64,000 nucleotides of DNA from the NCBI RefSeq assembly GCF_003287935.1, contig NZ_CP030287.1, positions 1,736,001 through 1,800,000 of the forward strand, written 5' to 3'. Source of the stretch: Streptomyces sp. ICC1 (GTDB taxonomy: Bacteria; Actinomycetota; Actinomycetes; Streptomycetales; Streptomycetaceae). Positions within the stretch are counted from its first letter, which is position 1. The number at the start of each line of letters is the position of its first letter. A model generated the notes under the pieces. That model was not told the DNA's origin and did not search any database. It saw only the letters and a list, made by a program, of their open reading frames with translations. Below are positions 10,353 through 46,670 of this stretch, one piece after another. The translations under genes and the position numbers were made by a program.

Positions 10353-10517
10353 CTAGTGCTGTGACCGGAAAGGTTCACCGGGTCGCGGCGCCCGGCACGG
10401 CACCTCGCCGCGTTGTCGGACCACCGAAGTACGTCCAGTACGAGCGGCGGCCCTCCGCCTTGCGAGGCACCGCACCGGACACCGCGACCCGGCAAACCTT
10501 TCCGGCCACAGCACTAG
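10353..10517. mobile_element. MITE-like repeat, copy A (165 bp)
   Basis: The element runs from CTAG (10353-10356) to CTAG (10514-10517). Its ends are 23-bp inverted repeats with one mismatch (CTAGTGCTGTGACCGGAAAG on the left). Further inside, CCGGGTCGCGG on the left is complementary to a block on the right, so the whole element can fold into one long hairpin. There is no transposase ORF. Copy B at 46506-46670 has the same length and order, and copy C at 31543-31593 is an internally deleted form. The right CTAG supplies the TAG stop codon of the toxin gene. Confidence 0.85.
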
Positions 10518-10786
10518 ACCTCGATGTACGCCACGACGACCACGGTGCGCAGCGCCGTGACGAAGTAGAGGACGCGGACGGACTCGACCTCGTCGGTGTA
10601 CTGGCGGAGTTGGGGTGCGGTGGTGTCGCCGGGGATCGTCTCGCCGATGACGGGGTCCACGGAGATGACGACGAGGGCGCGGTCCAGGGCGTGGAGGACG
10701 GCCTCGTCGGTGATGTCCTCCAGCTGTTTCGCAGCGGCGTCGGACAAGGCGATCCGCGCTCGGCGGCGGGCGGGATGTGTGCCCAT
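10514..10786 (-). CDS. RelE/ParE-type toxin-like protein
   Basis: A 90-residue basic protein from the ATG at 10786 (MGTHPARRRARIALSDAAAKQLEDI). The order helix-helix-beta sheet, with QLRQYTDEVESVRVLYFVT and a hydrophobic last strand ending AYIEV, fits the RelE/ParE mRNA interferase or gyrase-poison fold. The start overlaps a possible antitoxin stop (TGATG). Its own stop codon TAG is part of the CTAG edge of the repeat element. The catalytic class cannot be decided from sequence alone. Confidence 0.65.
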   Translation of the reverse strand: MGTHPARRRARIALSDAAAKQLEDITDEAVLHALDRALVVISVDPVIGETIPGDTTAPQLRQYTDEVESVRVLYFVTALRTVVVVAYIEV

Positions 10787-10912
10787 CAGGCGGCCGCGGG
10801 GTGCTGGTCGGTGAGGCGGGCGAGGTGTGCTTCGCACACCTCTTCCCGTGGCCGCGTCGGCGGCCGCGGGGTCCAGCGGCTGCCGGGCGGCGGAGGCCGG
10901 CTGTTCACTCAT
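10786..10912 (-). pseudogene. Frame-broken antitoxin remnant upstream of the toxin
   Basis: Reading from the ATG at 10912 gives MSEQPASAARQPLDPAAADAAT. After that the sensible frame continues one base later as EEVCEAHLARLTDQHPAAA and a TGA that overlaps the toxin ATG. The switch falls in a GGG run (10845-10847). Removing one G would give a 41-residue acidic protein translationally coupled to the toxin. As written, the first frame runs on into the toxin and would make a 132-residue fusion. It is either a real frameshift or a base-calling error. Confidence 0.45.
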
Positions 10913-11212
10913 GCCTCATCGGGGACTCCAGGACACTGAACTGGCGGGTTCACACCACGGTACCGCCCGGTCAGGCCTCTGGACTCCCGTACGGACGAAC
11001 CGGGCCCGCACCGCCAGGACCGGCCCGGGGGGCGGTGCGGGACCGGTGCGCGTTCCGGATCTCCGGAACGCGGGTCGCCTTCGAGTGGTCGATGACGTTG
11101 CCGTTGTCGCTGTGGCTGTCGCTGTCGGACGAGGTCGCGGACGTCGGTCCCGGCGTTGACCGGGGGGCTCGTCCTGACGGTCGCGTAGGGCCAAGCCCTG
11201 GTCTCGGCAAGG
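10913..11212. other. Intergenic region with an 11-bp-arm palindrome
   Basis: No convincing gene is seen. The stretch holds a perfect palindrome (next entry) and a run of TCG/TGT-type codon-like repeats near 11098-11140. On the minus strand these would read Ser-Asp-Ser-Asp, but no start with a ribosome binding site fits. It lies upstream of the antitoxin/toxin pair and downstream of the deaminase gene. Confidence 0.4.
11049..11072. promoter_or_regulatory. Perfect palindrome, possible operator or hairpin
   Basis: CGCGTTCCGGA and its exact complement flank a TC centre. The near-zero spacing argues against a good RNA terminator loop and favours a dimeric protein-binding site. It lies about 140 bases upstream of the antitoxin/toxin start on the minus strand and about 140 bases beyond the deaminase stop. 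The regulator is unknown. Confidence 0.35.
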
Positions 11213-11641
11213 TCAGCGGTAGTAGCCCTCGACCACCGGCTTCACCTCGTCGAACAGCGCGGGGCCGTCCTGCGGCACGGGCAGCCGGCCGCTGCCGGGC
11301 CTGATGTCCAGGAGCTGTTCGTTGGACAGGGCGAATACCACCCGCCGTAGTCCCGCGCTCTGGATGGCCGCCTCGCACATTCCGCACGGCTGGCAGCTGG
11401 TGTACATCGTGGTCCGCGCCGCGGTGTCCCCCTGCAACTCCCCCGCGGCCCACCTCGCCAGCTTCAGCTCCGGGTGCGCGGTGATGTCGTTGTCGGTGAG
11501 GGTGGTGTTGTGGGCCTCTGCCAGAACCGTTCCGTCCGGTCCCGCCAGGAGGGATCCGAACGGCGGGTCACCGCCCGCGGCCGCCTTGGCCGCGAGCGCG
11601 ATGGCCCGGCGCAGGAGAGTGTGGTCGTCGAGTGTGGTCAT
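11213..11641 (-). CDS. Nucleoside/nucleobase deaminase family protein
   Basis: A 142-residue zinc-dependent deaminase of the cytidine-deaminase-like fold. The zinc site is H56-P-E58 with PCGMC (Cys86 and Cys89), the arrangement of guanine deaminases and tRNA adenosine deaminases. Pro replaces the usual Ala in HAE, which is tolerated in the guanine-deaminase-like group. The ATG at 11641 follows GGAGCAGTC. It starts 11 bases after the stop of the luciferase-like gene and is probably translated from the same mRNA. The substrate cannot be fixed from sequence. Confidence 0.8.
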   Translation of the reverse strand: MTTLDDHTLLRRAIALAAKAAAGGDPPFGSLLAGPDGTVLAEAHNTTLTDNDITAHPELKLARWAAGELQGDTAARTTMYTSCQPCGMCEAAIQSAGLRRVVFALSNEQLLDIRPGSGRLPVPQDGPALFDEVKPVVEGYYR

Positions 11642-11652
11642 GACTGCTCCGT

Positions 11653-12501
11653 TCAGGTGCGGGGGGAGAAGGAGTGGGCTGCCACCGTGGCGAGTGCCTG
11701 CCAACTCGCCTGGGGATGGCACGTCTCACGGGGGTCGCCGTTGTAGGTGTCGAGGACGACGGTCTCGGCTCCGAGCAGGCGCAGTCGGTCAAGGTCGTCC
11801 ATGATCTGGTCGATCGTTCCCTCCCCTGCGAGCCGTTGTGGTCCGGTGACCGGTGCTTCGGTGAGCTTGAGCGCGATCCGGGGGCTCAGGGCGGGGACGG
11901 GGAGTCGTTCCTCGTCCGCGAAGGCCTTCAGCCTGACCACGGCTTCGCGTAGCCACGGCAGGGTGCAACGCAGCGGATGCCAGGCGTCACCGAGCCGCAC
12001 GGCACGGCGCAGCCCCGCGTCGCTGTTTCCGCCGACCCATACCGGGATCCCGCGGCTTCCGTAGGAGGCGGTGTCCGTCCAGGCCGCCCGTATGTCCCGC
12101 AGGTGGTCGTCGGTCAGTCGCCCGCGACGTTCGAACGGAACCCCGAGGGCGGCGAACTCCTGTCGTGCCCAGCCCACCCCCACACCGAGGACGAGCCGGC
12201 CGCCGCTCAACTGGTCCAGGTTGGCCGCCATGCGGGCCGTGAGCAGCGGGTGTCGGTAGGGAGCGATGAGGACTGTCGTGCCCAGCCGCACCCGAGTGGT
12301 GAGTCCGGCCAGCCAGGACAGGGTGGTGAACGGCTCGTAGAACGGTGCGGGATACCGCTCGGCGACATCGGGAGTAGTGACGATGTGGTCCGAGACCATC
12401 AGCAGGTCGAAGCCGAGACCCTCCACCGTCTGAGCCCCATCGCGTAGGGTTCCCGGGTCCGTGCCGGGGCCGAAGTTGAGGATGTTGACTCCGATCTTCA
12501 T
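11653..12501 (-). CDS. Luciferase-like, probably F420-dependent oxidoreductase
   Basis: A 282-residue TIM-barrel protein starting MKIGVNILNFGPG. Motifs VSDHIVTTPD, GTTVLIAPYRHPLLTA, GGRLVLGVGVGWARQEFAALG and IPVWVGGNS are typical of actinobacterial LLM-class F420-dependent enzymes. The ATG at 12501 lies 94 bases from the divergent Lrp-type regulator, which is likely to control it. It is followed by the deaminase gene. The substrate is not known. Confidence 0.82.
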   Translation of the reverse strand: MKIGVNILNFGPGTDPGTLRDGAQTVEGLGFDLLMVSDHIVTTPDVAERYPAPFYEPFTTLSWLAGLTTRVRLGTTVLIAPYRHPLLTARMAANLDQLSGGRLVLGVGVGWARQEFAALGVPFERRGRLTDDHLRDIRAAWTDTASYGSRGIPVWVGGNSDAGLRRAVRLGDAWHPLRCTLPWLREAVVRLKAFADEERLPVPALSPRIALKLTEAPVTGPQRLAGEGTIDQIMDDLDRLRLLGAETVVLDTYNGDPRETCHPQASWQALATVAAHSFSPRT

Positions 12502-12595
12502 GCAGCTCAGGCTAGTCGCGGAAGCGGGACCGCCAGAAGGGATTCCCGCCTGTTCAGGGCCGGTTCTCCCGTGGATCCATCGGTAATATGGGCAG

Positions 12596-13090
12596 ATGAC
12601 CGAGAATCTCGACTCGACGGACTGGGCGATTCTGGATGAACTCCAGCGGGACGGCAGGATCGCGTTCACGGAGCTGGCCCGGCGCGTCAACCTGAGCGCG
12701 TCCGCGACGACGGAGCGGGTGCGGAGGCTGGAGGCGGCCGAGGTGATAGCGGGGTACCGGGCGGAGGTGGACCTCGAACGGACCGGTTACATGGCGCTGG
12801 CGATCGTCCGGCTGAAGTATCCGGGGAATCGGCATGAGCCCTTGCGTCAACTCCTCGGGGAGCGACCGGAAATTCTGGAGTGCCTGCGCACTACCGGAGA
12901 CGACTGCTACGTACTGAAGGTGGCGGCCACGTCGATGGCCCAGCTCGAGGAGATCGTCGACGCACTGGCGCAGTTCGGGAGCACGACCACCAACCTCGTC
13001 CTCAGCCGTACCCTGCCGTTCCGCGGCCCGGCACAGCCTCAGGCCGTCGGTACTGCTCGGCCCCGGACGGCCACCGCACGTACCATCTGA
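12596..13090 (+). CDS. Lrp/AsnC family transcriptional regulator
   Basis: A 164-residue protein with an N-terminal helix-turn-helix (DWAILDELQRDGRIAFTELARRVNLSASATTERVRRLEAAEVI) and a C-terminal RAM-like ligand/oligomerisation domain (ALAIVRLKY...CYVLKVAATSMAQLEEIVDAL...TTTNLVLS). The ATG at 12596 is chosen because it directly precedes the HTH. Divergent orientation and a 94-bp shared spacer suggest it regulates the oxidoreductase/deaminase pair and itself. Confidence 0.88.
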   Translation: MTENLDSTDWAILDELQRDGRIAFTELARRVNLSASATTERVRRLEAAEVIAGYRAEVDLERTGYMALAIVRLKYPGNRHEPLRQLLGERPEILECLRTTGDDCYVLKVAATSMAQLEEIVDALAQFGSTTTNLVLSRTLPFRGPAQPQAVGTARPRTATARTI

Positions 13091-13136
13091 ATGGCCCATC
13101 ACAGACGAACGCACGCAGGGCGGGGAGCGGAGCAGA

Positions 13137-13382
13137 ATGGTGTTGGCGGCCCAAGTCGCGACCGTGGAATACCTCTACGCCATACGGTATGGAGTCTTTG
13201 GCATAGTGGGGCTCGGGATTGCCTTCAATCTATTTGACTGCGCCTATCGAATTCACCAGCTCGCGATGGACCGTTCGCCCGTGGCCCCTGGAGCTGGATT
13301 CAGTCCCACCGTCCTGCGTATCGCCGGGCTCGTGCTGGGATCCCTCTCCGCGATTTCCTGCGTCCATGAGCTGACCGCTTGA
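13137..13382 (+). CDS. Small two-helix membrane protein
   Basis: An 81-residue protein with two predicted membrane segments, about residues 18-35 (YGVFGIVGLGIAFNLFD) and 58-74 (TVLRIAGLVLGSLSAI). The ATG at 13137 follows GGGGAGCGGAGCAG. The AT content is higher than in its neighbours, which may mean recent transfer or relaxed selection. No family recognised. Confidence 0.5.
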   Translation: MVLAAQVATVEYLYAIRYGVFGIVGLGIAFNLFDCAYRIHQLAMDRSPVAPGAGFSPTVLRIAGLVLGSLSAISCVHELTA

Positions 13383-13388
13383 CCATGT

Positions 13389-13611
13389 GCCGCCGGCCCG
13401 CCATTCCGGGGAACGGGACCGGCCGGTGCCGAAGCCGTAGCAGTCGATGCGGCGCGACGTCGTGGTCGTCATACCGGAGTTGTCGGTGACGGTGAGCTCC
13501 GCGGTGTAGCTGCCCTGCCCGGCCGGGTGGCGGTGCGTCGCGGTGGCACCGGTGCCCGTGCCCGTGCCCGTGCCGGAGTCGCCGAACTTCGTTCCTCTCC
13601 GCGCCCACGGT
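13389..13611 (-). pseudogene. PKD-domain fragment, gene remnant
   Basis: On the minus strand one frame reads TKFGDSG, then a GT-repeat, then HPAGQGSYTAELTVTDNSG and TSRRIDC, which is the second half of a PKD/beta-sandwich domain (GDG-like turn, then SYTAELTVTD). There is no start codon or signal sequence. The frame meets a TGA at its upstream end and runs on past the domain without a family-like end, so this is a left-over piece. It supports loss of a secreted-protein gene here, perhaps related to the PKD protein at 4.9-6.7 kb. Confidence 0.45.
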
Positions 13612-13794
13612 GTTCATCGACGAAAAGGGACCGCTCCGATGAGCCTGTCCTGAACGTCGACGCCGGATCCCGTTGATCGTCCCCATGGGGTGCCGGTATG
13701 CGGGTACCGGCCGCGCCACCAGCCTCGAGGGATCCAACCTCTGATCTGCGTCAAATCGTACGTCCGCGCCCTGCGTCGGCAGGACGATGCGGCC

Positions 13795-14775
13795 ATGTCG
13801 ATCTCGTCTTGGACGCTTCCGGCTCGCACCCACTGGAAGCGCGTGTACGTGCCTGCTGGGGCTGTCATCAATGGCTTGGGCAATTCGATGTACAGCACCC
13901 CCCACCGGTGGCCGGGCCTCGCGCTCTTCGTGTGCGGACTCGTGATCGCGGTGCGCGGGCGCCGTGCGTGGGACGGGTTCGGGCAGGGATGGCACCTTCC
14001 CGGGCAGGTGAGCGGCCGGCTGAAAGACGCGTTCCTGACACCTGAGTGGGTCAGCCGCTGGGGAAAGCTCAAGGTGGCGGTGTGGGGGCTCATCGCCTTC
14101 AGGTTCGCGGTCCATCCGTTCTTTCTCCCCGAAAGGATCGCGGCCGCCCCGGATCAGCTGTTCGAGCACGGCAGGGACGCCATGACGATGCTCGCGTTCA
14201 CGTTCCTGTTCCCCTCCTTCACCCGCTGGATCGAGCCGAAGGAGAACCAGCTCCAAAGGCTCGCGGCGCGCGTCTTCCGCGCCATGGTCGGCCGTACGCT
14301 GGCGAACTTCAGCGGACTCTGCGGCGTGGCGGTCCTGCTCTACACCCTGCTCTCCAGGTTCGCTCACGACAGCGTCAGGTCATTGCCCGCGCTGACCCTC
14401 ACGATCGCCGTCGCCATGGTGGTGGCGACCCACAAGATGTGGACCCGCTACCGGAAGCTGTGCACGCAGACCCACAAGGACATCCAGGCCTTGGTCCGCG
14501 CCCTGGAGAAGCCACCCGGTGCGGACGTGGTGGACCAGCGGTCTGCGGTCCTCGCCGCCTGGGACGCGGTGGAGCGGGATCTGCGCACCCGCGCTGACAC
14601 GGGATACAGCTTCGGGACGCGCTTCGCCCCGAAGGCGGTCACCGCGGCGATCGGCGAGGCGGTGGAGAAGATCGGCAAGGGGCTGCCGGGCCATCAGGAC
14701 GCGCGGGAGCAGGTCCTGATGGACTTGAAGGTCATCCAGGATGTGTGTGCCGACGAGATCGATTCCGTGGCGTGA
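13795..14775 (+). CDS. Membrane-associated protein of unknown function
   Basis: A 326-residue protein from the ATG at 13795 (MSISSWTLPARTHW). Predicted membrane segments lie near residues 40-52 (WPGLALFVCGLVIAV), 93-110 (VAVWGLIAFRFAVHPFF), 169-183 (LCGVAVLLYTLLS) and 197-210 (LTLTIAVAMVVAT). The C-terminal 110 residues are soluble and helical. No motif is recognised. An upstream in-frame ATG at 13690 is possible, but the added residues are basic and unlike the rest. Confidence 0.6.
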   Translation: MSISSWTLPARTHWKRVYVPAGAVINGLGNSMYSTPHRWPGLALFVCGLVIAVRGRRAWDGFGQGWHLPGQVSGRLKDAFLTPEWVSRWGKLKVAVWGLIAFRFAVHPFFLPERIAAAPDQLFEHGRDAMTMLAFTFLFPSFTRWIEPKENQLQRLAARVFRAMVGRTLANFSGLCGVAVLLYTLLSRFAHDSVRSLPALTLTIAVAMVVATHKMWTRYRKLCTQTHKDIQALVRALEKPPGADVVDQRSAVLAAWDAVERDLRTRADTGYSFGTRFAPKAVTAAIGEAVEKIGKGLPGHQDAREQVLMDLKVIQDVCADEIDSVA

Positions 14776-14794
14776 CGCTGCGGGCGGGGAGCGG

Positions 14795-15370
14795 TCAGGG
14801 GCGCAAGGCGTAGCAGCGGAGCACGTCGAGGTCGGCGGTCCGCACGACGGACCATCCGGCGGTGAGGATCTCGACCTCCGCGGGGCTGATCCCCAGGCCC
14901 TGGAGGGGGTCGGAGCCCCCTCGGCGGCCGGTGACCTCGGTGACCACCCAGAAGGTTCCGCCCGGTGCGAGTAGGCGGCGTACGCGGTCGAGCAAGAGCG
15001 CCTTGTCGTCCATCCACCGGTACACCAGCCGGCAGGTGATGACCGCGTACGCCGGGTCCGGCAGCGCGGTGAGGTCGTCGGTGGTGAAGTCGGCGCACCT
15101 CCAGACCGGTCCGTGTCCGGGAGCCGCGCCGTGGGCGGCCAGCGCGACGGCGCTCCGGGAGCAGTCGATGCCGGTGGTGCGGTATCCGAGCCCGTGGTGG
15201 AGGTGACGGGCCAGGGCTCCGTCGCCGCAACCGAGGTCGAGGGCCGGGCGCCCGCGGCCCCGGCCCAGGTGCTGCTCCAGCAACCGTGTCTCAGGGCCGT
15301 CGATCTGCCGGTACCGGCGGCCTTGTGCCCAGAGCGGTTCCCAGTAGGAGGCGGTCGTGGTCGTGGTCAT
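14795..15370 (-). CDS. Class I SAM-dependent methyltransferase
   Basis: The 191-residue protein has motif I LDLGCGDGALARHL (about 44-57), then GIDCSRSAVALA and LLAPGGTFWVVTEV, the usual order of a Rossmann-fold methyltransferase. Its start is 15 bases after the stop of the exporter gene, which suggests one operon in which a compound is modified and exported. The acceptor is unknown. Confidence 0.82.
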   Translation of the reverse strand: MTTTTTASYWEPLWAQGRRYRQIDGPETRLLEQHLGRGRGRPALDLGCGDGALARHLHHGLGYRTTGIDCSRSAVALAAHGAAPGHGPVWRCADFTTDDLTALPDPAYAVITCRLVYRWMDDKALLLDRVRRLLAPGGTFWVVTEVTGRRGGSDPLQGLGISPAEVEILTAGWSVVRTADLDVLRCYALRP

Positions 15371-15385
15371 GGTGATCCTCCGGGG

Positions 15386-16906
15386 TCATTCCTTGGCGCC
15401 AGGTGTGGGTGCCCCCGCCGACGGGGCGGGGCGGCCGGGGAGGAAGAGCGAGCCGAGGGCCGCGCAGGCGGTGAAGAGGGCGGCGCAGAGGAAGGCGTGG
15501 GCGTAGCCGGCCGTGAGGGCCTGGGATCCCGGGCCCGCATGGCCGCGGGCGGTGTGGGACACGATGGCGGCGAGAACGGCGAGTCCGACGGCGCCGCCGA
15601 CCTGGCGGGACGTGTTGACCAGCCCGGAGACCAGGCCCGCCTCCCGCGGGTGGATGCCGGTGGTGGCCGCGGCGGTGACGGGCAGCATGGCCAGCCCCAG
15701 GCCGAGGGCGCACAGGGTGAACGGCGCTGCCACATCGGTGGTGAAGACTCCGTGCAGGTGGATGCGCGAGAGCCACAGGAAGCCGAGGGTGCTGATGGCC
15801 AGGCCACCGACGAGCAGGCTCCGCGGGCCGGTGCGGTGGACGAGGTGGGTGGCGGTCCTGGTCCCGATGACGACCGCGAGGCAGCTGGGCAGGAACCACA
15901 GCCCCGTCTTCAGCGCGCTGAAGCCGAGGACCTGCTGCATGTAGAGGGAGAGCAGGAACCACATCGCGAACATCGCCGCGCCCAGGCCGATCATGACCCC
16001 GTTCGCGATGGCGAGGGTGCGGCGGCGCAGGACGCGCAAGGGGACCAGCGGGTCGGCGGCCTTCGACTGGATGAGGACGAAGGCCGCCATCAGCACGACG
16101 CCGACGGCGAGTGCCGCCCACACGTGCGGGGAGGCCGGGGAAACGCTCTCGGTGGAGATGATCGCGTAGACGAGGGCGGTCAGACCGACGGTGACGGACA
16201 GCGCGCCGGGAAGGTCCAAGCGCCGCGGTCCGTCCGTGCCCCGCGGTCCGTCCGCGCACTGCGGTCCGTCCGTGCCCCGCGCACCGTCACCGCTCCGGGC
16301 GGCGGGCAGGTGGAGGTACCCGGCGACGCAGAACACGACGCCGACGGGAACGCCGATGAAGAAGACCCAGCGCCAGCCGGCGTACTCGGTCAGCGCGCCG
16401 CCCAGCAGCGCGCCGACCGCGCCGCCCACGGCGTTGACGGAGCTCCAGGCGCCCAGCGCACGGGTACGGGCGCGCGGGTCGGTGAAGGTGGTCATGATCA
16501 GCGTCAAGGTGGCGGGGGCGAGGATCGCGCCGCCGACGCCCTGGACGGCGCGCGCCGCGATGAGCGTGCCCGCGTTGGCGGCGAGTCCGCAGGCGAGGGA
16601 CGCGGCGGTGAAGACGCCGAGGCCGGCCAGGAAGACGCGGCGGGCACCGACCAGGTCGGCGGCGCGCCCGCCCAGGAGCAGCAGCCCGGCGAAGGCGAGG
16701 GTGTAGGCGTTGACGATCCACTGCTGCCCGGCCGGGCTCAGTCCGAGGGAGTCCTTGATGTCAGGAAGGGCGACGTTCACGATCGAGATGTCCAGGACGA
16801 CCATGAACTGGGCCGCACAGGCGATCACGAGGATCATCGCCGTCCACGCACCGCGGCGCGTGGACGGTGCGGGTTCGGAGTCGAGCACGGGCGGAGCACT
16901 GCGCAT
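15386..16906 (-). CDS. MFS drug exporter, DHA2 (14-segment) family
   Basis: A 506-residue transporter starting at the ATG at 16906, preceded by GAGGAACCCC. Motif C-like sequences (QFMVVLDISIVNVALPDI), GGRAADLVGARRVFLAGL (motif A) and WRWVFFIGVPVGV are diagnostic of DHA2 proteins such as EmrB/QacA. About 14 hydrophobic segments are visible. A cytoplasmic loop near residues 205-235 carries a short Gly-Asp/Gly-Pro repeat (DGPQCADGPRGTDGP), coded by an imperfect DNA repeat at about 16221-16290. It probably exports an antibiotic or toxic compound. Confidence 0.88.
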   Translation of the reverse strand: MRSAPPVLDSEPAPSTRRGAWTAMILVIACAAQFMVVLDISIVNVALPDIKDSLGLSPAGQQWIVNAYTLAFAGLLLLGGRAADLVGARRVFLAGLGVFTAASLACGLAANAGTLIAARAVQGVGGAILAPATLTLIMTTFTDPRARTRALGAWSSVNAVGGAVGALLGGALTEYAGWRWVFFIGVPVGVVFCVAGYLHLPAARSGDGARGTDGPQCADGPRGTDGPRRLDLPGALSVTVGLTALVYAIISTESVSPASPHVWAALAVGVVLMAAFVLIQSKAADPLVPLRVLRRRTLAIANGVMIGLGAAMFAMWFLLSLYMQQVLGFSALKTGLWFLPSCLAVVIGTRTATHLVHRTGPRSLLVGGLAISTLGFLWLSRIHLHGVFTTDVAAPFTLCALGLGLAMLPVTAAATTGIHPREAGLVSGLVNTSRQVGGAVGLAVLAAIVSHTARGHAGPGSQALTAGYAHAFLCAALFTACAALGSLFLPGRPAPSAGAPTPGAKE

Positions 16907-17188
16907 GGGGTTCCTCACGGGCGGCGGTGGACGGATCCGGGCCGGGAAGCGAGCGCTCGCCCTGCCCGCCCCCATGTCTGCCCTCGTCACGCACCGTTGT
17001 CACAGCTCACGGCAACCGGGTGACCCCGCGCCGCGTACCCACCGGGCGCCGAGGGCACCTACGGGCCGGCGGCGTGGGCCTGGCGGGCGGGCGCCTCGCC
17101 TTTCTTGGCCTTCATGCCCCACCACGGGCCGCCGACAGTGCTACAACTGGTTCGTGACCCCTCCTTGCAACCCGTACCGGGGACGTCG

Positions 17189-30154: not shown

Positions 30155-31546
30155 ATGCGTACTGCTTACAGCGTGGAGACCGTACGGGCCGCCGAGCGCG
30201 AGCTGATGGCCCGGCTACCCGAAGGCACCCTGATGGCGCGGGCGGCGGCCGGACTGGCCGCCGTCTGCGCCCGGCTGCTGCCCCGGGTGTACGGGGCGCG
30301 CGTGGTGCTGCTCGTCGGCCCGGGGGACAACGGGGGCGACGCGCTGTACGCGGGCGCGCGCCTGGCCCGGCGCGGGGCCGGGGTCACCGCGGTGGCCATG
30401 GATCCGGCGCGGGTGCACGCGGGCGGGCTGGCCGCGCTGCGGGCCGCCGGCGGACGCCTCGCCGAGGCCGTGCCGCCGCGGGCGGACCTCGTCGTGGACG
30501 GGCTCGTGGGAATCGGCGGCCGGGGCGGGCTGCGGCCGGCCGCGGCCGCGCTGGCGGAGCGGATCCCGGCGGGCGCGGTGGTGGTCGCGGTGGACCTGCC
30601 GAGCGGGGTGGACGCGGACACCGGGGAGGTGGCCGGGGCGGCCGTACGGGCCGATGTCACGGTGACCTTCGGGGCGTACAAGCCGGGGCTGCTGATCGAT
30701 CCGGGGGCCGGGCTGGCCGGGGCGGTGCACCTGGTGGACATCGGGCTGGCCCTCCCCGCGGCGCCGGACATCGAGGCCCTGCAGCACGCGGACGTGGCCG
30801 CACTGCTGCCGGAGCCGACCCGGACGAGCGACAAGTACCGGCGCGGCGTGGTCGGGATCGTCGCCGGGTCCGCGCGCTACCCGGGCGCGGCGGTGCTCGC
30901 GGTGGCGGGCGCGCTGCGGGGCGGCGCGGGCGCGGTGCGCTACGTGGGACCGGCGGCCGTCGCGGACGCCGTGCTGGCCCGCTACCCGGAGACGCTGATC
31001 GGGCCGGGCCGGGTCCAGGCGTGGGTGGTCGGGCCGGGGCTGGGAGACGAGGACGGCACCCGGGTGCTGGCGGAGCCGGTGGCGGTCCTGCTGGACGCGG
31101 ACGGGCTGCGCGGACTGGACCCCGAGGTGCTGAGGGCGCGGACGGCACCGACCCTGCTGACCCCGCACGCGGGGGAGGCGGCGGCGCTGCTGGGCGTCGC
31201 GCGGGAGGCGGTGGAGTCGGGGCGGCTGGCCGCGGCGCGCGAGCTGGCGGAGCGGTACGGCGCGGCGGTCCTGCTGAAGGGGTCGACGACGCTGGTCGCC
31301 CCCGGCGGCGGCCGCCCCGTCCGGGTGAACCCGACCGGGACTCCGTGGCTGGCCACCGCGGGGAGCGGGGACGTGCTGTCCGGGCTGGCGGGCTCTCTGC
31401 TGGCGGCGGGCCTGTCGGGGCCGGACGCGGGGGCGGTGGCGGCGTACCTCCACGGCCTGGCGGCCCGCCTGACCGGAGGCCCGCTGCTGGCGCAGCAGGT
31501 GGCGCAGGCGGTGCCGTCCGCCTGGCGCGAGGTGCTGCGCGGCTAG
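30155..31546 (+). CDS. nnr: Bifunctional NAD(P)H-hydrate repair enzyme
   Basis: A 463-residue fusion. Residues 1-210 are the YjeF-type epimerase (LLVGPGDNGGDALYAGARLARRG, VVDGLVGIGGRGGL, AVDLPSGVDADTGEV). Residues 220-463 are the ribokinase-like ADP-dependent dehydratase (VLTPHAGEAAALLG, LLKGSTTLVA, GSGDVLSGLAGSLLAAG). Together they restore NADH and NADPH damaged by hydration. The stop TAG at 31544-31546 is the CTAG edge of repeat copy C. The gene order acpS-nnr-alr is conserved in Streptomyces. Confidence 0.95.
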   Translation: MRTAYSVETVRAAERELMARLPEGTLMARAAAGLAAVCARLLPRVYGARVVLLVGPGDNGGDALYAGARLARRGAGVTAVAMDPARVHAGGLAALRAAGGRLAEAVPPRADLVVDGLVGIGGRGGLRPAAAALAERIPAGAVVVAVDLPSGVDADTGEVAGAAVRADVTVTFGAYKPGLLIDPGAGLAGAVHLVDIGLALPAAPDIEALQHADVAALLPEPTRTSDKYRRGVVGIVAGSARYPGAAVLAVAGALRGGAGAVRYVGPAAVADAVLARYPETLIGPGRVQAWVVGPGLGDEDGTRVLAEPVAVLLDADGLRGLDPEVLRARTAPTLLTPHAGEAAALLGVAREAVESGRLAAARELAERYGAAVLLKGSTTLVAPGGGRPVRVNPTGTPWLATAGSGDVLSGLAGSLLAAGLSGPDAGAVAAYLHGLAARLTGGPLLAQQVAQAVPSAWREVLRG

Positions 31547-31593
31547 TGCTGTGACCGGAAGGGTCCACCGGGCCTTTCCGGCCACAGCACTGG
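31543..31593. mobile_element. MITE-like repeat, copy C, internally deleted (51 bp)
   Basis: The left end CTAGTGCTGTGACCGGAAGG matches copy B, and the right end CCTTTCCGGCCACAGCAC matches copy A, but only about ten bases separate them. The right CTAG has become CTGG. The result is a compact hairpin directly on the nnr stop codon, between nnr and alr, where it may also act as a terminator. Confidence 0.8.
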
Positions 31594-37976: not shown

Positions 37977-38254
37977 GCACCGTCGCGCTGATGTGGGAGG
38001 CCCGGGCCGTGCCCGGGCGGGGCAACGAGCTGCTGGAGTGGGCCCGTTCGCGGGTGCTGGCCCAAGAGCCGGTGCGCCGGGAGGTGTTCCGCGCCCCGCA
38101 GGGCCGGGTGCTCGTCATCACCTGGTGGGAGACGCCCGGGGGAGTCTCCGACGACCTGCCCGAACTGCCCGAACCGGAAGCCGACTTGATCACGCGGGCG
38201 GTGCACCGCTGGCGCTTCGAGTCGGTCGGGGCGGAGGGGCCCGGCGGAAGCTGA
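37973..38254 (+). CDS. Small ABM-like protein of unknown function
   Basis: A 93-residue protein starting at the GTG that overlaps the tsaD stop (GTGA at 37973-37976). The sequence ([25 protein letters not shown]...[22 protein letters not shown]...[10 protein letters not shown]) fits a single ferredoxin-like fold as in antibiotic-biosynthesis-monooxygenase-like proteins. It is translationally coupled to tsaD. The function is unknown. Confidence 0.65.
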
Positions 38255-38301
38255 GCCTCCGGGCGGGGGCCCGCCGGGCCCCGCGACCTGCCGCTATGGT
38301 C

Positions 38302-40160: not shown

Positions 40161-40252
40161 TGTCGGCCACGGTGGGCCAGTCGGAGGAAGGTCGAATTCC
40201 GCTCGCGGTGTCGGCCGGGGCGCGGGCCGGGCGGATGCCAGGATGCTCAGCT

Positions 40253-41212
40253 ATGCAGCTAGTCCGACAAAAGGAACATAAGACGCAACAGGGTCACCGG
40301 ATCGCGGCAGCAGCGCGAGGCCGGTTGGGGATGGCCGCGATGGCCGCACTGCTGGTCGCCGCAGTGGCGACCGGGTGCGGATCCGCGGAGCCCGGGTCGC
40401 CGGACAAGGCCGCGAAGGCGAAGGCCGCCGCCGGCGCCGAGCCGGCCGGCGCGGCCGGCGCGCTCGGCAACTACGCCGAGAAGCTGAAGGCCGCCCAGCA
40501 GGCGCGGGTGGTCGCCGCGAAGAAGTGGGGCCTGGTCAAACCGCCGCTCATGGCCCCGGCCGCGCCCAAGACGAAGCCCGAGATCACCACTCGGGACGGC
40601 TTCGAGGTGGAGGACCAGGAGAACCTGCCCCCGGTCTTCACCACCGTCCCCACGGAGGAGAAGGTCGTCTTCCTGACGATCGACGACGGCGCGGAGAAGG
40701 ATCCCGAGTTCCTGAAGATGATGCAGGAGCTGAAGCTCCCGTACACCGCGTTCCTGAGCGACTACCTGGTGCGGGACAACTACCCGTACTTCAAGGAGAT
40801 GCAGGCGGCGGGCGTCACGCTCAACAACCACACGCTCAACCACCGCTACATGCCGGCGCTCTCCTACGAGAAGCAGCGGCAGGAGATCTGCGGGCAGCAG
40901 GACACGATCGAGAAGCAGTTCGGCAAGCGGCCCACGCTGTTCCGCCCGCCGTACGGGAACTACAACGAGGACACGCTGCGCGCGGCCAAGTCCTGCGGGG
41001 TCAAGGCCGTTCCGCTGTGGAACGAGGAAGCCTTCCCGAACCGGATGGACTGGCGGGAGTGGGACAAGGACCTGCACCCCGGTGACATCATCCTCACGCA
41101 CTTCCGGGGCAAGGAAGACTGGAAGGGCAGCATGACTGACATGATCCGTCATGTCATGAAGACCGTCACGGACAAGGGGTACGCCGTGGCTCGCCTGGAG
41201 GATTACTTGTGA
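40253..41212 (+). CDS. Lipoprotein polysaccharide deacetylase 1
   Basis: A 319-residue protein with signal peptide and lipobox VATGC (Cys42). The NodB domain has FLTIDDGAEKD (catalytic and metal aspartates), HTLNH (metal histidines) and RPPYGNYNEDT. It probably deacetylates peptidoglycan or another surface glycan outside the membrane. Its stop overlaps the start of a paralogue by four bases, so the pair arose by tandem duplication and is co-translated. TIDDGAEK replaces the more common TFDDGP. Confidence 0.9.
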   Translation: MQLVRQKEHKTQQGHRIAAAARGRLGMAAMAALLVAAVATGCGSAEPGSPDKAAKAKAAAGAEPAGAAGALGNYAEKLKAAQQARVVAAKKWGLVKPPLMAPAAPKTKPEITTRDGFEVEDQENLPPVFTTVPTEEKVVFLTIDDGAEKDPEFLKMMQELKLPYTAFLSDYLVRDNYPYFKEMQAAGVTLNNHTLNHRYMPALSYEKQRQEICGQQDTIEKQFGKRPTLFRPPYGNYNEDTLRAAKSCGVKAVPLWNEEAFPNRMDWREWDKDLHPGDIILTHFRGKEDWKGSMTDMIRHVMKTVTDKGYAVARLEDYL

Positions 41213-42105
41213 GGTACGCGCGCCGGTTGACAGCCGGAACGCTGGCGGCCGGCGCGCTCGCGCTGTCCCTGACGGGGTGCGGGGGCAGCGCGGACCCCAC
41301 CGGACGGATGGGTCCGGGGACCACGGAGGCGGGGCGGTCCGCGCCGCCCCCGGCCACGTCCTCACCGTCCGGGACGGGGGCGGGGACGGCGCCGGGGCCG
41401 AGCTCCGCGGGGGACGAGGCGTACCGGAAGTGGGGCCTGAACGCCCCCCTCCAGTACGCCCCCAAGCCCGCGGCCAGGGCGCAGATCCCGCCGGCGCAGC
41501 CGGGCCGGGTCCAGGTCGTGGACCGAATACCCGTCCCGGCGGACGACAAGGTCGTCTTCCTGACGTTCGACGACGGCGCCGAGAAGAGCCCCGAGTTCCT
41601 GAAGATGGCCGCCGAGCTGAAGCTGCCGATCAGCATGTTCCTGACGGACGCCATCGCCTCGTCGGACTACGGCCACTTCGAGGCGCTCCGCGACAACGGC
41701 TCGGGCAGCACGATAAACAACCACACGCTGACGCACCCGAACCTGCGGACCCTGTCCTTCGAGGCGCAGAAGAAGGAGATATGCGGGCAGCAGGAACGCC
41801 TGGAGAAGCGCTTCGGCACGAAGCCGGCCCGGTTCCGCCCGCCGTACGGCAACTACAACGACGACACCCTCAGGGCCGCGCACGAGTGCGGGATATCGCA
41901 GCTGCTCCTGTGGCGCGTGTCGATGCAGATCAACAACTTCCAGTACGCCGAGGGCTCCGCGCTCAAGCCGGGTGACATCGTCCTGGCCCACTTCCGCGGC
42001 CCGTCGGAGCTCAAGGGCACGACGGAGACCGAGATGACGACGCGGATGCTCCAGCGGATACAGGAGCAGGGCTACCGGATCGGTCGGCTGGAGGACTACC
42101 TCTGA
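41209..42105 (+). CDS. Lipoprotein polysaccharide deacetylase 2
   Basis: The 298-residue paralogue of the preceding gene, with lipobox SLTGC (Cys24), a long Gly/Ser/Pro linker, FLTFDDGAEKS, HTLTH and RPPYGNYNDDT. The GTG at 41209 overlaps the upstream stop (GTGA). The metal ligands are intact. The two copies differ most in the linker and in the segment before the C-terminal GYxxxRLEDYL, which both share. Confidence 0.9.
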   Translation: MRYARRLTAGTLAAGALALSLTGCGGSADPTGRMGPGTTEAGRSAPPPATSSPSGTGAGTAPGPSSAGDEAYRKWGLNAPLQYAPKPAARAQIPPAQPGRVQVVDRIPVPADDKVVFLTFDDGAEKSPEFLKMAAELKLPISMFLTDAIASSDYGHFEALRDNGSGSTINNHTLTHPNLRTLSFEAQKKEICGQQERLEKRFGTKPARFRPPYGNYNDDTLRAAHECGISQLLLWRVSMQINNFQYAEGSALKPGDIVLAHFRGPSELKGTTETEMTTRMLQRIQEQGYRIGRLEDYL

Positions 42106-42185
42106 CCGAGGGGGCCGGGTCGGGCAGACCGGGCCGGGTCGGGTAGACCGGGCCGGGCCGGCCGACTGGCCCCGCCCCGCCCCGC

Positions 42186-43589
42186 TCAGACCGACTGCGG
42201 GGTCAGCGCCGGTGTGATCGTCGTTGCCACCGGTCCCCGGCTGTCCGCCTCGCGCTGGCGTTCCGCGCTGTCGGAGATCCGCAGCAGCAGGGCGATCATG
42301 ATCCAGTTGGCCAGCAGGGACGAGCCGCCGCTGGCCAGGAAGGGCAGCGCCTTGCCCGTCAGGGGGATCAGGCCCGTCACGCCGCCCGCCACCACGAAGA
42401 CCTGCAGGGCCAGCGCCGAGGACAGGCCCACGGCCAGCAGCTTGCCGAAGGGGTCGCGCGCGCCCAGCGACATCCGCAGCCCCCGCTGCACGAGGAGCCC
42501 GTACAGGGCGAGGACGGCCATGACGCCGACCAGGCCCAGCTCCTCGCCCACCGTCGTCAGGATGAAGTCGCTGCGGCCGGCGAAGCCGAGCAGCTCCGGG
42601 TGGCCCATGCCCAGCCCGGTGCCCGTGACGCCGCCGGTGCCGAAGCTGAACAGCGCCTGCGCCGACTGGTCCGAGATGATGCCCGGCGGCCGGGGGTTCG
42701 AGTAGTAGGACAGCGGGTTGAGCCACGCGGCCACGCGCCCCTTGACGTGCGGCTCGACCGAGCCGACGACGAAGGCGCCCACGCAGGACATCAGCAGGCC
42801 GAAGATGGTCCAGCTGGTGCGTTCGGTGGCGACGTAGAGCATCACCACGAAGACGCCGAAGAAGATCAGCGAGGTGCCGAGGTCGCGCTCGAAGACGAGG
42901 ACGAGGAGCGACACGATCCACACCGTGATGATCGGTCCGAGTTGGCGCATCGGGGGCAGCCGCATGCCGAGGAACTTGCGGCCCGACAGGGCCAGCGAGT
43001 CGCGGTGGATGACCAGGTAGCCCGCGAAGAAGATCGCGATCATGATCTTCACGAACTCGCCGGGCTGGACCGAGAGCGAGCCGACGGTGATCCAGCGCTT
43101 CGCCCCGAACTTGTCCGCGCCGAAGAACGCCGGCGCGATCAGCGCCACCAGGGCGACGGCCATCGTGATGTAGATGAACCGCTGCAGCAGCCGGTGGTCG
43201 CGCAGCAGCCCCAGCACCGCGATGCAGGCCGCGACGCCGACCACCGACCACATCAGCTGGCCGGGCGCCGTCGCCGGCGAGTTGTACCGCTCCAGGTACC
43301 CCTGGTCGAGCCGGTGCAGCAGCACCAGGCCCAGCCCGGTCATCAGCAGGGCGATGGGGAAGATCAGCGGATCCGCGTACGCCGCGAACCGGCGCACGGC
43401 CAGGTGCCCCACCAGCGCGAGCAGCGTCATGCTGATCACGAAGCCGGTGAGGCCGGCCGGCAGCGCGTCGTTCATCGCGAGGCCCGCGCTGATGTGGCCG
43501 GAAATGGTCACGCCGAGGACGAGGACGAGCAGCAGTGCTTCGGTGCGGCGGCGCGCGCCCGCCGACGTCAGGGGTTTCAGTCCACGCAC
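42186..43589 (-). CDS. SEDS family peptidoglycan polymerase (FtsW/RodA type)
   Basis: A 467-residue protein with about ten membrane segments. The SEDS signatures include GAKRWITVGSLSVQPGEFVKIMIAIFF, VFERDLGTSLIFFGVF and GTGGVTGTGLGMGHPELLGFAGRSDFILTTVGEELGLVG, and near the end SGGSSLLANW. Such proteins polymerise lipid II with a partner class B PBP. No PBP gene is adjacent. The GTG at 43589 overlaps the LCP gene stop by 13 bases, which decides the start and indicates coupling. Confidence 0.92.
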   Translation of the reverse strand: MRGLKPLTSAGARRRTEALLLVLVLGVTISGHISAGLAMNDALPAGLTGFVISMTLLALVGHLAVRRFAAYADPLIFPIALLMTGLGLVLLHRLDQGYLERYNSPATAPGQLMWSVVGVAACIAVLGLLRDHRLLQRFIYITMAVALVALIAPAFFGADKFGAKRWITVGSLSVQPGEFVKIMIAIFFAGYLVIHRDSLALSGRKFLGMRLPPMRQLGPIITVWIVSLLVLVFERDLGTSLIFFGVFVVMLYVATERTSWTIFGLLMSCVGAFVVGSVEPHVKGRVAAWLNPLSYYSNPRPPGIISDQSAQALFSFGTGGVTGTGLGMGHPELLGFAGRSDFILTTVGEELGLVGVMAVLALYGLLVQRGLRMSLGARDPFGKLLAVGLSSALALQVFVVAGGVTGLIPLTGKALPFLASGGSSLLANWIMIALLLRISDSAERQREADSRGPVATTITPALTPQSV

Positions 43590-44887
43590 GGAACGCCGCC
43601 GCCGTCGATGGCGGGGATGCCGTTGTCTTCCTTCGACTTCGACGGGGTCGGTGCGGGCGCGGAGCCCGGGCCGGACGCCGGGCCGGACGCCGGGCCGGAC
43701 GCGGACGCGGCCGGTGCGGGAGTGCCCGCCGGTGAGGGAGCGGCGCCCGGTGCGCTCGGACTCGCAGAGGCCCTGGGACCGATCTGCTCGGCAATGAGGC
43801 GCTTTATCTTCATATCGTCTACGACGTTTATGTCGGACCCATGGTTCCTGTCGAAGCGCTCGATGGGAAGGGTCACAAATTCCACGTTGCCCCCCGACAG
43901 GCTCTTGGCCTGCTGCACGAACGACAGCAGGTCCCACCCCTGATCGGTGACGACGTCCTGCTTCGCGGTGTCGATCAGCTTGAGCAGTTTCACCGGATCG
44001 GTGAAGGTCCCGGCCTGATTGAGCTTGTACGTCGCCCCCGCGAGGAAGGCCTGCTGCCGCTTCGTCCGGTCCAGGTCGCCCATGGTCAGCCCCATCCGCT
44101 GCCGGACGAAGGCCAGCGACTGCCGGCCGTCCAGCTCGTGCCGCCCGGCCGAGAAGTCGGCCCCGGAGTTCTTGTCCTTCACGGCGTGGTTCAGGCAGAC
44201 CGGTACGCCGCCCAGCGCGTCCGCCAGATGGTAGAAGCCGGCCAGGTTCAGCTCGGCGAAATGGTCGATCGGGACCCCGAGGAAGGTGCGGACCGTCTCG
44301 ATCTCCGCCTTGCGCCCCGCCTCGCGCCCCTCGCGCTCCAACTGCCTCTTGTCCGTGACCCCCCGGGCCGAGAGCTGCTCCTCGGTCGTGGCCTTCGCCC
44401 GCCCGTACGCCTCCTTGATCTTGGCCTTGCCGGTGAACCCGGGCACGCCCCGCAGGTCGACGAAATCGTCGCGCGGCACCGAGAAGGCCTTCGCCTTGCC
44501 GCCGTCGCCGGGGACGTGCAGCAGGATCAGGGTGTTGGTGTTGTAGCCGCCGACGTCGGAGCTGGCGCCCGCGTGCAGTTTGTCGAGGATCTCCGGCGGG
44601 AGGTCCTCGCCGTTCTGGTCGCGGCGGCTGTCCAGGCCCATCAGCAGGATGTTCACATCGCCGTGCTTCGACTTCTCGGCGCCCTCCAGGGCCTTGGAAC
44701 TGCCGATGCTGGAGACCAGGTCCCGGTACAGGTACCAGGCCGAGCCGCCGGCGATCACCGCCAGCGCGCAGCCGGCCGCCAGCAGGGTGCGGACGAGCCG
44801 GCTCCGGCGCGAGGGCCTGCGGCGGCGGGTCGCGGGGGCCTGTGGCGGCCGTTCCCGCTCCGGGGGCTTCCTGCGGTGGGCGCTCAT
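43577..44887 (-). CDS. LytR-CpsA-Psr family protein
   Basis: A 436-residue protein with a basic cytoplasmic N-terminus, one membrane segment (LVRTLLAAGCALAVIAGGSAWYL) and an extracellular LCP domain (DVNILLMGLDSRR, TLILLHVPGDG, SVPRDDFVDL, LNLAGFYHLADALGGVPVCLNHAVKD, LAFVRQRMGLTMGDLDRTKRQQAFL). LCP enzymes attach teichoic-acid-type or other glycans to peptidoglycan. The C-terminal tail is Ser/Ala/Pro/Gly-rich with GPASGPASGPG repeats and ends with a Cys pair-like GGGVPCVD. It forms an operon with the SEDS gene. Confidence 0.92.
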   Translation of the reverse strand: MSAHRRKPPERERPPQAPATRRRRPSRRSRLVRTLLAAGCALAVIAGGSAWYLYRDLVSSIGSSKALEGAEKSKHGDVNILLMGLDSRRDQNGEDLPPEILDKLHAGASSDVGGYNTNTLILLHVPGDGGKAKAFSVPRDDFVDLRGVPGFTGKAKIKEAYGRAKATTEEQLSARGVTDKRQLEREGREAGRKAEIETVRTFLGVPIDHFAELNLAGFYHLADALGGVPVCLNHAVKDKNSGADFSAGRHELDGRQSLAFVRQRMGLTMGDLDRTKRQQAFLAGATYKLNQAGTFTDPVKLLKLIDTAKQDVVTDQGWDLLSFVQQAKSLSGGNVEFVTLPIERFDRNHGSDINVVDDMKIKRLIAEQIGPRASASPSAPGAAPSPAGTPAPAASASGPASGPASGPGSAPAPTPSKSKEDNGIPAIDGGGVPCVD

Positions 44888-44944
44888 GCCTGTCGATGCT
44901 GGGGGAGCGCGGCTGAAGGAATCCTGAGGGTCCTGAAACCGCCT

Positions 44945-46531
44945 TCAGGGACGGGCGGGCGGTGGCCCGCCTCCCGGGCCGATCTCCGGGCCGGTCTCCG
45001 GGCCGATCGCTGGGCCGGTCTCCGGGCCGATCGCTGGGCCGGTCTCCGGGCCGCCTTCAGGCCCGCGCCCGGGCCCGCGCCCCGGCACCCGCAGCACCAG
45101 CCGCGCACCGGCACGGCCGGCGGGCGCGGGGAGCGCCCGGACGTCACCGCCGTGCGCCCGCGCGATCTCCCGGGCGATCGCCAGGCCCAGGCCGGTGCCG
45201 CCGCTGGTCCGGCCCCGGTCCGCGTCCAGCCGTACGAACCGCTCGAAGACCCGGTCCCGGTCCGCCTCCGGGATGCCCGGCCCGTCGTCGGCCACCTCCA
45301 GCACCGCCCAGCCGTCGCCGTCGGCGCCCGCCCTGACGGTGACCTCGGTGCGGGCGTACCGCAGGGCGTTGTCCACCAGGTTGGCCAGCGCCCGCTCCAG
45401 GCGCGCAGGATCCCCGGCGGCCGGTACGGGGGCCCGCGCGTCCAGCCGCAGCGCGACCCGGGGCTCCGGGCGCCGCGCCACGTCCTCGGCGGCCAGCAGC
45501 GCGAGGTCCACCGGCTCGGTGCGCGGCGCGGGTCCGCCGTCGAGGCGGGCCAGCAGGAGCAGATCGGCCGCGATGCGCTGGAGCCGCTCGGTATCGGCCA
45601 GCGCGGCCGCCACGGACTCCCGGTCGGGGTCCCGCAGCGCCACCTCCAGCCGGGACCGCACGGCCGCTAGGGGGTTGCGCAGCTCGTGCGAGGCGTCGGC
45701 GGTGAACTGCCGCTGCCGGGCGTCGCTGCGCTCCAGCCGGTCGAGGGTGGCGTTGACGGTCCGGGCCAGCCGCGCGATCTCGTCGGCGCCGCCCGGGTCC
45801 GGGACCCGCCGGTTCAGCTCGCTCGCGGTGACCGCCGCCAGCTCGGTGCGGATCGCGGTGACGGGGCGCAGCGCGTGCCCGGTCACCCACCAGGCCAGGA
45901 GCGCCGAGAAGGCGATCAGCGGGGGCGCGCCGGCCAGCAGGCCGAAGGCGACGGCCCGGTTGGCGTCGTCGACGTCGCCGAGCACGGTCATGGCGTACAC
46001 GGTGTGCGGGGCGTGCGCCCCCGGCGGGCCGGGGGCCTGGACGGCGACCACGACGCGCCGCTGCGCGCCGGGGCGCGCGGGCTCCAGGACCGCCGACCGG
46101 GAGTCGTCGCCGGGCGCGATGCCCGGCCCGGCGGGCTCGGGGGTGTCCTCGAGGTCCCCGCTGGTGGCGACGGTCGCGCCGGCCGCGTCCCGTACGAGGA
46201 CCAGGTCGACGCCGCCCTCGGGCGCGGGCAGTCGGCCGCCCGCCGGGAGGGTCGCGGTGTCCAGCTGGGCGGCGACCTTGCGGGCGGCGAGCTCGGTGCG
46301 GCCGGTGGTGTTCTCGATGAGGTTGGCGCGCAGCACGGTGTAGAGCCACAGCCCGCCGGTGGCGAGCACGGCGGCCATCGCGAGGGCGGCGGCCGCGGCG
46401 GCGCGGGCCCGCAGGCTGCCGAGCCGGCGTGTCCGGGCGCCGGACCGGCCCCGGGACCCGGACCCGGACCCGGACCGGGGTCGGAGCCGGGGTCGGGACC
46501 GGGCGCTAGTGCTGTGACCGGAAGGGTTCAC
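44945..46531 (-). CDS. Sensor histidine kinase with displaced start
   Basis: About 528 residues from a GTG at 46531 that lies inside repeat copy B; an in-frame TTG at 46648 is also inside it. Order: basic Arg/Ser/Gly stretch, membrane segment (AAAAALAMAAVLATGGLWLYTVL), extracellular sensor, second membrane segment (LIAFSALLAWWVTG), HAMP, dimerisation helix with phosphoacceptor DASHELRNPLAAVRSRLEV, and ATPase domain (LVDNALRYA, EVADDGPGIPEADRDRVFERFVRLD, GGTGLGLAIAREIARAHGG). The C-terminus is a GPETGPAI-type repeat tail. It pairs with the response regulator upstream. Confidence 0.85.
   Translation of the reverse strand: MNPSGHSTSARSRPRLRPRSGSGSGSRGRSGARTRRLGSLRARAAAAAALAMAAVLATGGLWLYTVLRANLIENTTGRTELAARKVAAQLDTATLPAGGRLPAPEGGVDLVLVRDAAGATVATSGDLEDTPEPAGPGIAPGDDSRSAVLEPARPGAQRRVVVAVQAPGPPGAHAPHTVYAMTVLGDVDDANRAVAFGLLAGAPPLIAFSALLAWWVTGHALRPVTAIRTELAAVTASELNRRVPDPGGADEIARLARTVNATLDRLERSDARQRQFTADASHELRNPLAAVRSRLEVALRDPDRESVAAALADTERLQRIAADLLLLARLDGGPAPRTEPVDLALLAAEDVARRPEPRVALRLDARAPVPAAGDPARLERALANLVDNALRYARTEVTVRAGADGDGWAVLEVADDGPGIPEADRDRVFERFVRLDADRGRTSGGTGLGLAIAREIARAHGGDVRALPAPAGRAGARLVLRVPGRGPGRGPEGGPETGPAIGPETGPAIGPETGPEIGPGGGPPPARP
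44978..45056. repeat. 24-bp tandem repeat coding the kinase C-terminal tail
   Basis: About three units alternate GGGCCGGTCTCC and GGGCCGATCGCT, giving Gly-Pro-Glu-Thr-Gly-Pro-Ala-Ile in the protein. The length is likely variable between strains through slippage. Confidence 0.7.
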
Positions 46532-46670
46532 CGGGTCGCGGCGCCCGGCACGGCACCTCGCCGCGTTGTCGGACCACACCGGTACGTCCAGTACGAGGCG
46601 TGGTCCTCCGCCTTGCGATGCACCGCACCGAACACCGCGACCCGGCAAACCTTTCCGGTCACAGCACTAG
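46506..46670. mobile_element. MITE-like repeat, copy B (165 bp)
   Basis: It has the same length, ends and internal order as copy A, differing at roughly a dozen positions by eye. It has CTAG at both edges and no transposase ORF. The right CTAG (46667-46670) provides the stop codon of the response regulator. The left CTAG (46506-46509) is fused in frame to the histidine kinase. The element therefore sits precisely at the former stop/start overlap of a two-component pair. Confidence 0.87.

Follow-up and report, generated by a model that had tools for sequence, protein, structure and literature searches.

Insertion sequences (IS) of the IS630 family prefer TA within CTAG as their target (Tenzen and Ohtsubo 1991, as cited in the available text of PMC2170065), and a bacterial IS630/Tc1-mariner element is described there as moving as double-stranded DNA by cut-and-paste. 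Repetitive extragenic palindromes (REPs) of the GTAG type, according to the accessible part of PMC3733652, frequently give flanking open reading frames (ORFs) their TAG stop codon. We analyzed a 64,000-nucleotide stretch of the Streptomyces sp. ICC1 chromosome (positions 1,736,001-1,800,000 of a 9,034,319-bp contig; hereafter, the window), in which a first-pass annotation had described a three-copy repeat family with common inverted ends. The three copies were present as described: two elements of 165 bp each with CTAG at both edges (10353-10517 and 46506-46670), and a 51-bp copy (31543-31593) with CTAG at the left edge and CTGG at the right edge. We consider it probable that they are small non-autonomous elements, or miniature inverted-repeat transposable elements (MITEs), likely moved by IS630 into CTAG, whose core is predicted to function as a folded RNA with a fixed orientation. 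The new point is this core, a predicted strand-specific structured RNA that is widespread in the class Actinomycetes and appears to travel between unrelated transposon ends; neither its strand-specific signal nor the exchange of ends had been noted in the first-pass annotation.

A covariance model was run on 246 genomes sampled from the class and found the core, which is approximately 115 bases long, in 58 of them, representing 17 of 103 genera. It was found in 9 of 198 genomes drawn from the phylum, three of which lie outside the class and gave a single weak match each. The search of this and other genomes suggested in the first-pass annotation thus yielded both dozens of chromosomal copies and a wide distribution of the core. 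With the element itself as query, matches were obtained in 41 of the 61 genomes searched (the window's own included), and, among the matches listed, most of those outside its own genome spanned the inner element only (approximately bases 26-137). Plasmid records gave 48 matches, all in Streptomyces, Embleya or Streptantibioticus, and phage records gave none.

More than ten types of end were visible around the core, including IS630-like and IS5-like ends and others. The cores of the window element and of one relative (L061) were 87% identical, whereas their outer 22 bases were 18% identical. In 2,040 pairs whose ends were less than 50% identical, core identity had a median of 75% and a maximum of 92%, compared with 56% (standard deviation 4) for shuffled cores; pairs with exchanged ends combined cores of 87-92% identity with ends of 18-36% identity. 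These alignments indicate exchange of the ends, with the core retained in between. Conservation of the core despite the swapping of ends between transposon families would make the core the part that selection keeps, and the ends replaceable vehicles; since the same core persists in relatives whose ends are entirely different, it is predicted to work as a selected folded RNA.

The pairing of the core pointed in the same direction. Its orientation was fixed by an asymmetric internal loop and not by pairing. In that orientation the two arms pair almost perfectly if G-U pairs are allowed, whereas the reverse orientation gives A-C mismatches. Twenty-nine full-length copies contained 341 G-U against 6 A-C combinations. 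In the counts that follow, the arms were compared by alignment, which kept folding from favoring G-U. For the window's genome (51 copies), the numbers were 318 and 32 for the inner stem, and 193 and 14 for the outer bases. For other genomes, 262 raw core matches among those listed were reduced to 129 by dropping the 133 that had TA on neither side; a further 20 had short flanks, which left 109 loci, and a set of 84 elements comprised the loci with TA on both sides. Because these loci came from a pattern scan (matches listed) plus best matches, neither set is a random sample. Among the matches listed, counts over positions 23-55 (the inner stem) of the 84 elements were 425 for G-U and 16 for A-C, with G-U exceeding A-C in every one of the 84; the outer 22 bases gave 109 and 18.

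Predicted folds agreed with the arm comparison. The fixed orientation gave the better fold in every one of the 36 relatives placed from a first set of 39, in 104 of the 105 cores placed from a larger set with some overlap (28 of its 133 loci could not be placed and were left out; the exception was a false match inside a gene), and in 20 of the 21 placed loci of a model-derived set of 26. In an alignment of 42 diverse cores (those of 71 non-redundant cores with the commoner apical loop), 96.1% of the cells pair, and changes on both sides were seen at 20 of the 37 pairs; every covariation measure exceeded the values from all 500 shuffles and from all slid registers. Rfam gave no match in the whole window at its cut-offs, and a permissive search with copy 1 gave chance-level matches only, the best of them a nematode small nucleolar RNA (E 0.043; 18.1 bits, with the cut-off at 35). 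The core is therefore predicted, from these models, to be a strand-specific structured RNA cargo absent from Rfam. A kink-turn was considered for the internal loop, and by inspection against the consensus it did not fit.

On the chromosome, the 15-base end with at most one mismatch matched 198 times, compared with 9 times for a reversed control pattern; the description as a three-copy family therefore holds for the window and not for the chromosome. Within the 371 kb of chromosome examined, allowing at most two mismatches gave 344 end-like matches, from which 67 pairs were retained and 210 unpaired matches, mostly chance but including some real one-ended copies, were set aside. The pairs were spaced 157 bp (31 pairs) or 183 bp (20 pairs) apart between CTAGs, and the remainder were shorter or odd. 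Because 157 or 183 bp, the length of 51 of the 67 paired copies, is too short for a transposase gene, the elements carry none. In the genome blast, 40 of 317 candidates were scored, so that copy number is a lower bound.

Targeting of CTAG, as the first-pass annotation had proposed, was borne out across the genome: of the 67 pairs, 60 had CTAG at the left edge and 51 at the right, and in the window itself CTAG is indeed rare (16 observed, 76 expected). CTAG on both sides of the window family is compatible with a duplication of 2 or 4 bp. In a related family with AGGGCTGTCC ends, the flanks read CTA/A...T/TAG (slashes at the element edges); since these flanks have only TA in common, a TA duplication is favored. 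Among the 84 elements with TA on both sides, again among the matches listed, the outer base was C in 74 on the left and G in 73 on the right, and because TA is mostly bordered in this way the target is CTAG.

Relatives with empty sites were in accord with this target. The site of copy 3 was empty, with both flanks kept, in all five relatives compared (G061, G065, G077, G094 and G097). In G077 a single CTAG lies exactly there and the ORF stops at its TAG; G061 and G065 have CTAA at this place (TAG on the strand of the gene), and G094 and G097 have TCAG (TGA on that strand). At the site of copy 2, the nnr gene of G097 ends in a CTAG stop without an element. Empty sites containing CTAG thus exist for both places. 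Because nnr ends in TGA in five relatives (G061, G062, G065, G069 and G077), the empty site between nnr and alr is weaker evidence than that at the response regulator gene. A further copy (L017, from a core-genome location) was tried as an empty-site case and rejected because its flanks had diverged too far for the site to be placed exactly.

Stop codons were occupied more often than use of CTAG would give. After removal of 6 pairs with CTAG at neither end, 61 copies remained, and genes were called with a simple codon-usage caller trained on the window. The edge CTAG was the stop of a called gene in 39 of the 61 copies (on both sides in 3 of them). These segments also contained 66 CTAGs without an element, of which 14 were stops, 48 were intergenic and 4 lay within genes (Fisher p for the difference 1.1e-6; 4.3e-6 without the in-gene sites). 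In other genomes, among the matches listed, 59 of 109 elements and 26 of 110 free CTAGs were at stops (p 4e-6), or 26 of 87 free CTAGs when in-gene sites were left out (p 8e-4). Landing at gene ends, as first proposed, is therefore a genome-wide tendency, and stops are favored beyond plain CTAG use. Avoidance of promoters and reading frames could be the source of the excess, and target choice and selection are not separable in these data. Since the first element base was G or A in 81 of the 84 listed elements, TA together with this base leaves the target gene a TAG or TAA stop. The scarcity of CTAG, the one-fifth to one-quarter of free CTAGs that are stops, and an insertion that leaves the stop in place would together account for dozens of copies without gene breakage. 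The stop-codon seat is real, yet it was partly foreseeable from the known CTAG preference and from the behavior of REPs.

Orientation followed neither genes nor chromosome halves. The touched stop lay on the RNA-sense side in 21 cases and on the antisense side in 21 in the window's genome, and in 28 and 39 cases elsewhere among the matches listed (binomial p 0.22). Between the chromosome halves no orientation bias was observed in 52 copies (Fisher p 0.58 to 1.0).

The first-pass annotation had named IS630 and IS5 as candidate mobilizers and had proposed a search for a full-length IS with the same ends. Such an element was found at 8946520-8948013 of the window's chromosome. It is 1,494 bp long, is flanked by CTAG on both sides, and has inverted ends reading TGCTGTGACCGG(G/A)AAGGTTC(G/A)CCGGGT; its right end is identical to the window element end at 28 of 28 bases. 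Its 373-residue open frame matched DDE_3 and helix-turn-helix domains in Pfam (PF13358, PF13551 and PF13565, all above cut-offs), as in IS630-family transposases. A related IS630 transposase used as query matched 172 plasmid records, and all eight plasmid loci examined from these had CTAG-flanked ends of the window-element kind, two of them with imperfect pairs. On the basis of the matching ends, the window elements are likely mobilized in trans by the IS630 partner. IS5 is not a likely partner of the window family, although it fits another family bearing the same core: for AGGGCTGTCCCG ends, the likely partner is 878 bp long and has a DDE_Tnp_4 (IS5-type) transposase and a 255-residue open frame, and one core-bearing element with exactly these ends was also found in the genome of that partner.

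Two observations were made on the IS630 relatives themselves. Two plasmid relatives (L334 2645-3217 and L335 2645-3217) enclose a second gene, annotated as a class I S-adenosylmethionine (SAM)-dependent methyltransferase. Right-end fragments of approximately 126 bp of the chromosomal IS630 element (parent L273) were present at six further places (Table 1), each starting at CTAG; those compared in sequence all stop at the same base and then continue into different sequence. A 3.4-kb segment between two end-like sites (7629463-7632819) was considered as an autonomous element and rejected, as no transposase was recognized among its ORFs.

We then weighed other explanations of the conserved hairpin. 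The suggestion that it serves as a plain 3'-end terminator was not supported: no U-run stands at its end, and because its orientation is random relative to neighboring genes, a simple terminator is argued against. A broader form of this idea, which we regard as unlikely, is a structured 3'-end element kept for the benefit of the neighboring gene, in which a read-through hairpin terminates the transcript or protects it. At least one gene end faces the element in 56 of the 61 copies, strong folds are obtained for both strands of the window copies (-110 to -145.5 kcal/mol), and effects of this kind are known for other MITEs, as the available text of PMC3049150 describes. However, since stops are touched equally on either side of the fixed orientation (21 and 21), both strands would be read, yet the G-U signal is on one strand only, and the missing U-run counts here too.

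A second possibility is an ordinary MITE with a passive interior, in which only the ends count and strand-biased mutation produced the imbalance between G-U and A-C. Long imperfect palindromes are common in MITEs, and palindrome deletions are frequent in this family, as its short forms attest. Nevertheless, an imbalance of approximately 26 to 1, uniform in all 84 listed elements with many types of end, would have to coexist with an orientation that is random to genes and to chromosome halves; changes on both sides at 20 of 37 pair positions and conservation of the core instead of the ends also speak against it, and we consider it distinctly unlikely. In DNA hairpins, too, G-T is better tolerated than A-C. 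The same imbalance would consequently arise if the selected structure were a single-stranded DNA hairpin, read on one strand by a recombinase or replication protein. This appears very unlikely, given the absence of orientation bias between chromosome halves and the movement of the bacterial IS630-family element as double-stranded DNA in the available account (PMC2170065). REP-type palindromes moved by a RAYT (Y1) transposase are hardly credible, since, despite the TAG stops often supplied by GTAG-type REPs in the accessible part of PMC3733652, REPs are palindromes of 20-40 bp with a GTAG tag, and the elements here are 165 bp long and CTAG-flanked, with inverted ends of approximately 30 bp in common with IS630 and flanks that fit a TA duplication.

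Under the preferred reading, that of IS630-moved MITEs with an RNA-like core, the IS630 transposase would act in trans on the elements, which would enter CTAG by cut-and-paste with duplication of TA; this step is proposed because the ends match and because of the bacterial IS630/Tc1-mariner biochemistry in the available text of PMC2170065. Copies would be transcribed by read-through, and the RNA, which folds well in one orientation, would serve the element itself and not the neighboring gene, probably by binding a protein through the conserved internal loop. Because orientation is random, a benefit to the neighboring gene is hard to square with the data, whereas the fixed strand and the random orientation would both be accommodated by a predicted element-serving role in trans. 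A more far-reaching proposal is that of a mobile RNA changing vehicles, which repeatedly took the ends of unrelated transposons (IS630, IS5 and others), spread through the Actinomycetes, parks on low-cost stops, and acts in trans for its own spread; we hold it tentatively, at somewhat less than an even chance.

Several observations weigh against the RNA-like core. The random orientation relative to genes (21/21 here and 28/39 among the listed matches elsewhere) gives no visible local benefit in one orientation. The 183-bp form alters the conserved internal loop, yet it makes up 20 of the 51 full-length copies. Four 34-bp forms with one common junction suggest that core-less elements may have moved as such. 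One of the 21 placed loci of the model-derived set (L397) folds better in the opposite orientation. Finally, the imbalance was weaker in the outer 22 bases, where 43 of the 109 listed G-U combinations came from one end type, and part of it may have been inherited from unequal ends of insertion sequences.

The size classes differed as follows. The 183-bp copies, such as that at 1554310-1554492 (L040), have a small G+C-rich palindromic insert, CCCCCAGCTACCGCCGGGAGGGG, in place of GCAAGG of the internal loop; two loci (L195 and L216) have similar inserts on the opposite side of the same loop. The four 34-bp minimal forms (3604996, 4565700, 5527513 and 8243774) consist of nearly the ends only and have their common deletion junction at different places in the chromosome. 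At five positions (1554310, 3089087, 7466251, 8262311 and 8738395; L040, L002, L008, L018 and L145), an element and a second end-like sequence meet at a common or adjoining CTAG and look as though the next copy had inserted at the edge CTAG of the one before.

Table 1. Positions of the elements, cores and edge CTAGs in the window (window coordinates) and of the IS630 right-end fragments (chromosome coordinates).
Feature	Position	Strand	Remarks
Copy 1, full-length element	10353..10517	-	157 bp between CTAGs; RNA-like strand is minus
Conserved core, copy 1	10376..10490	-	Model R1, 107.9 bits
Edge CTAG, copy 1	10514..10517	-	TAG is the stop of ORF 10514-10912 (-), 132 residues, without Pfam match
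Copy 2, short form	31543..31593	-	Both ends present, core deleted; strand assigned from the two end sequences
Edge CTAG, copy 2	31543..31546	+	TAG is the stop of nnr (30155-31546, +)
Copy 3, full-length element	46506..46670	-	RNA-like strand is minus
Conserved core, copy 3	46529..46643	-	Model R1, 112.7 bits
Edge CTAG, copy 3	46667..46670	-	TAG is the stop of response regulator ORF 46667-47395 (-)
IS630 right-end fragments	6780838, 7043966, 8029352, 8146920, 8738579, 8807628		L126, L129, L139, L140, L145, L272

In the window, the 15-base end with at most three mismatches matched eight times against 2.3 expected from shuffles, and six of the eight matches were the ends of the three copies. The first-pass annotation was correct that the edge CTAG of each copy supplies the TAG stop of the adjoining gene, at all three places in Table 1. 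Of its labels for these genes (toxin, nnr and response regulator), Pfam supported the latter two, whereas the supposed 132-residue toxin gave no Pfam match at E<=0.001. The spacer to the left of copy 3 (46440-46505), before a histidine kinase gene, contains degenerate G+C-rich short tandem repeats.

If the preferred reading is true, the core would be an undescribed RNA family across the class, tied to transposition, and a fixed core with exchanged ends would be the opposite of the usual picture of a MITE. With the partner, the target, the empty sites and the structure defined, the role of a MITE interior is now directly testable in ordinary Streptomyces. A full-text literature search, with most subscription journals outside its reach, found no description of the window element family. 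In the main text of PMC10969869, which reviewed prokaryotic MITEs in 2024, neither Streptomyces nor actinobacteria nor IS630 is mentioned, and the words Streptomyces and actinobacteria are absent from the main text of PMC3733652.

Among described systems, the GTAG-type REPs resemble the present elements in that the repeat ends often provide the TAG stops of flanking ORFs; as far as the accessible text of PMC3733652 goes, however, they are short RAYT-associated palindromes without IS630-like ends. The BOX, RUP and SPRITE repeats of pneumococcus are likewise small and interspersed, with predicted RNA folds, and transcripts are known for pneumococcal repeats; as presented in the available part of PMC3049150 they are streptococcal families, and no test of strand imbalance like the one used here appears in that part, whereas here one core spans many genera and the ends of two transposase families. 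For QMITE1 of Coxiella burnetii, the accessible text of PMC5896051 describes variable ends and a conserved core, as here, but within one species, whereas the present core, with its RNA-type pairing, lies between ends of different transposon families across a bacterial class. The IS630/Tc1-mariner insertion sequences and their MITEs are alike in the approximately 30-bp ends held in common with an IS630-family element, the TA duplication, the preference for CTAG, and the absence of a transposase of the element's own; unlike those MITEs, the elements here carry a conserved strand-specific core, predicted to be an RNA, which is also found between unrelated ends.

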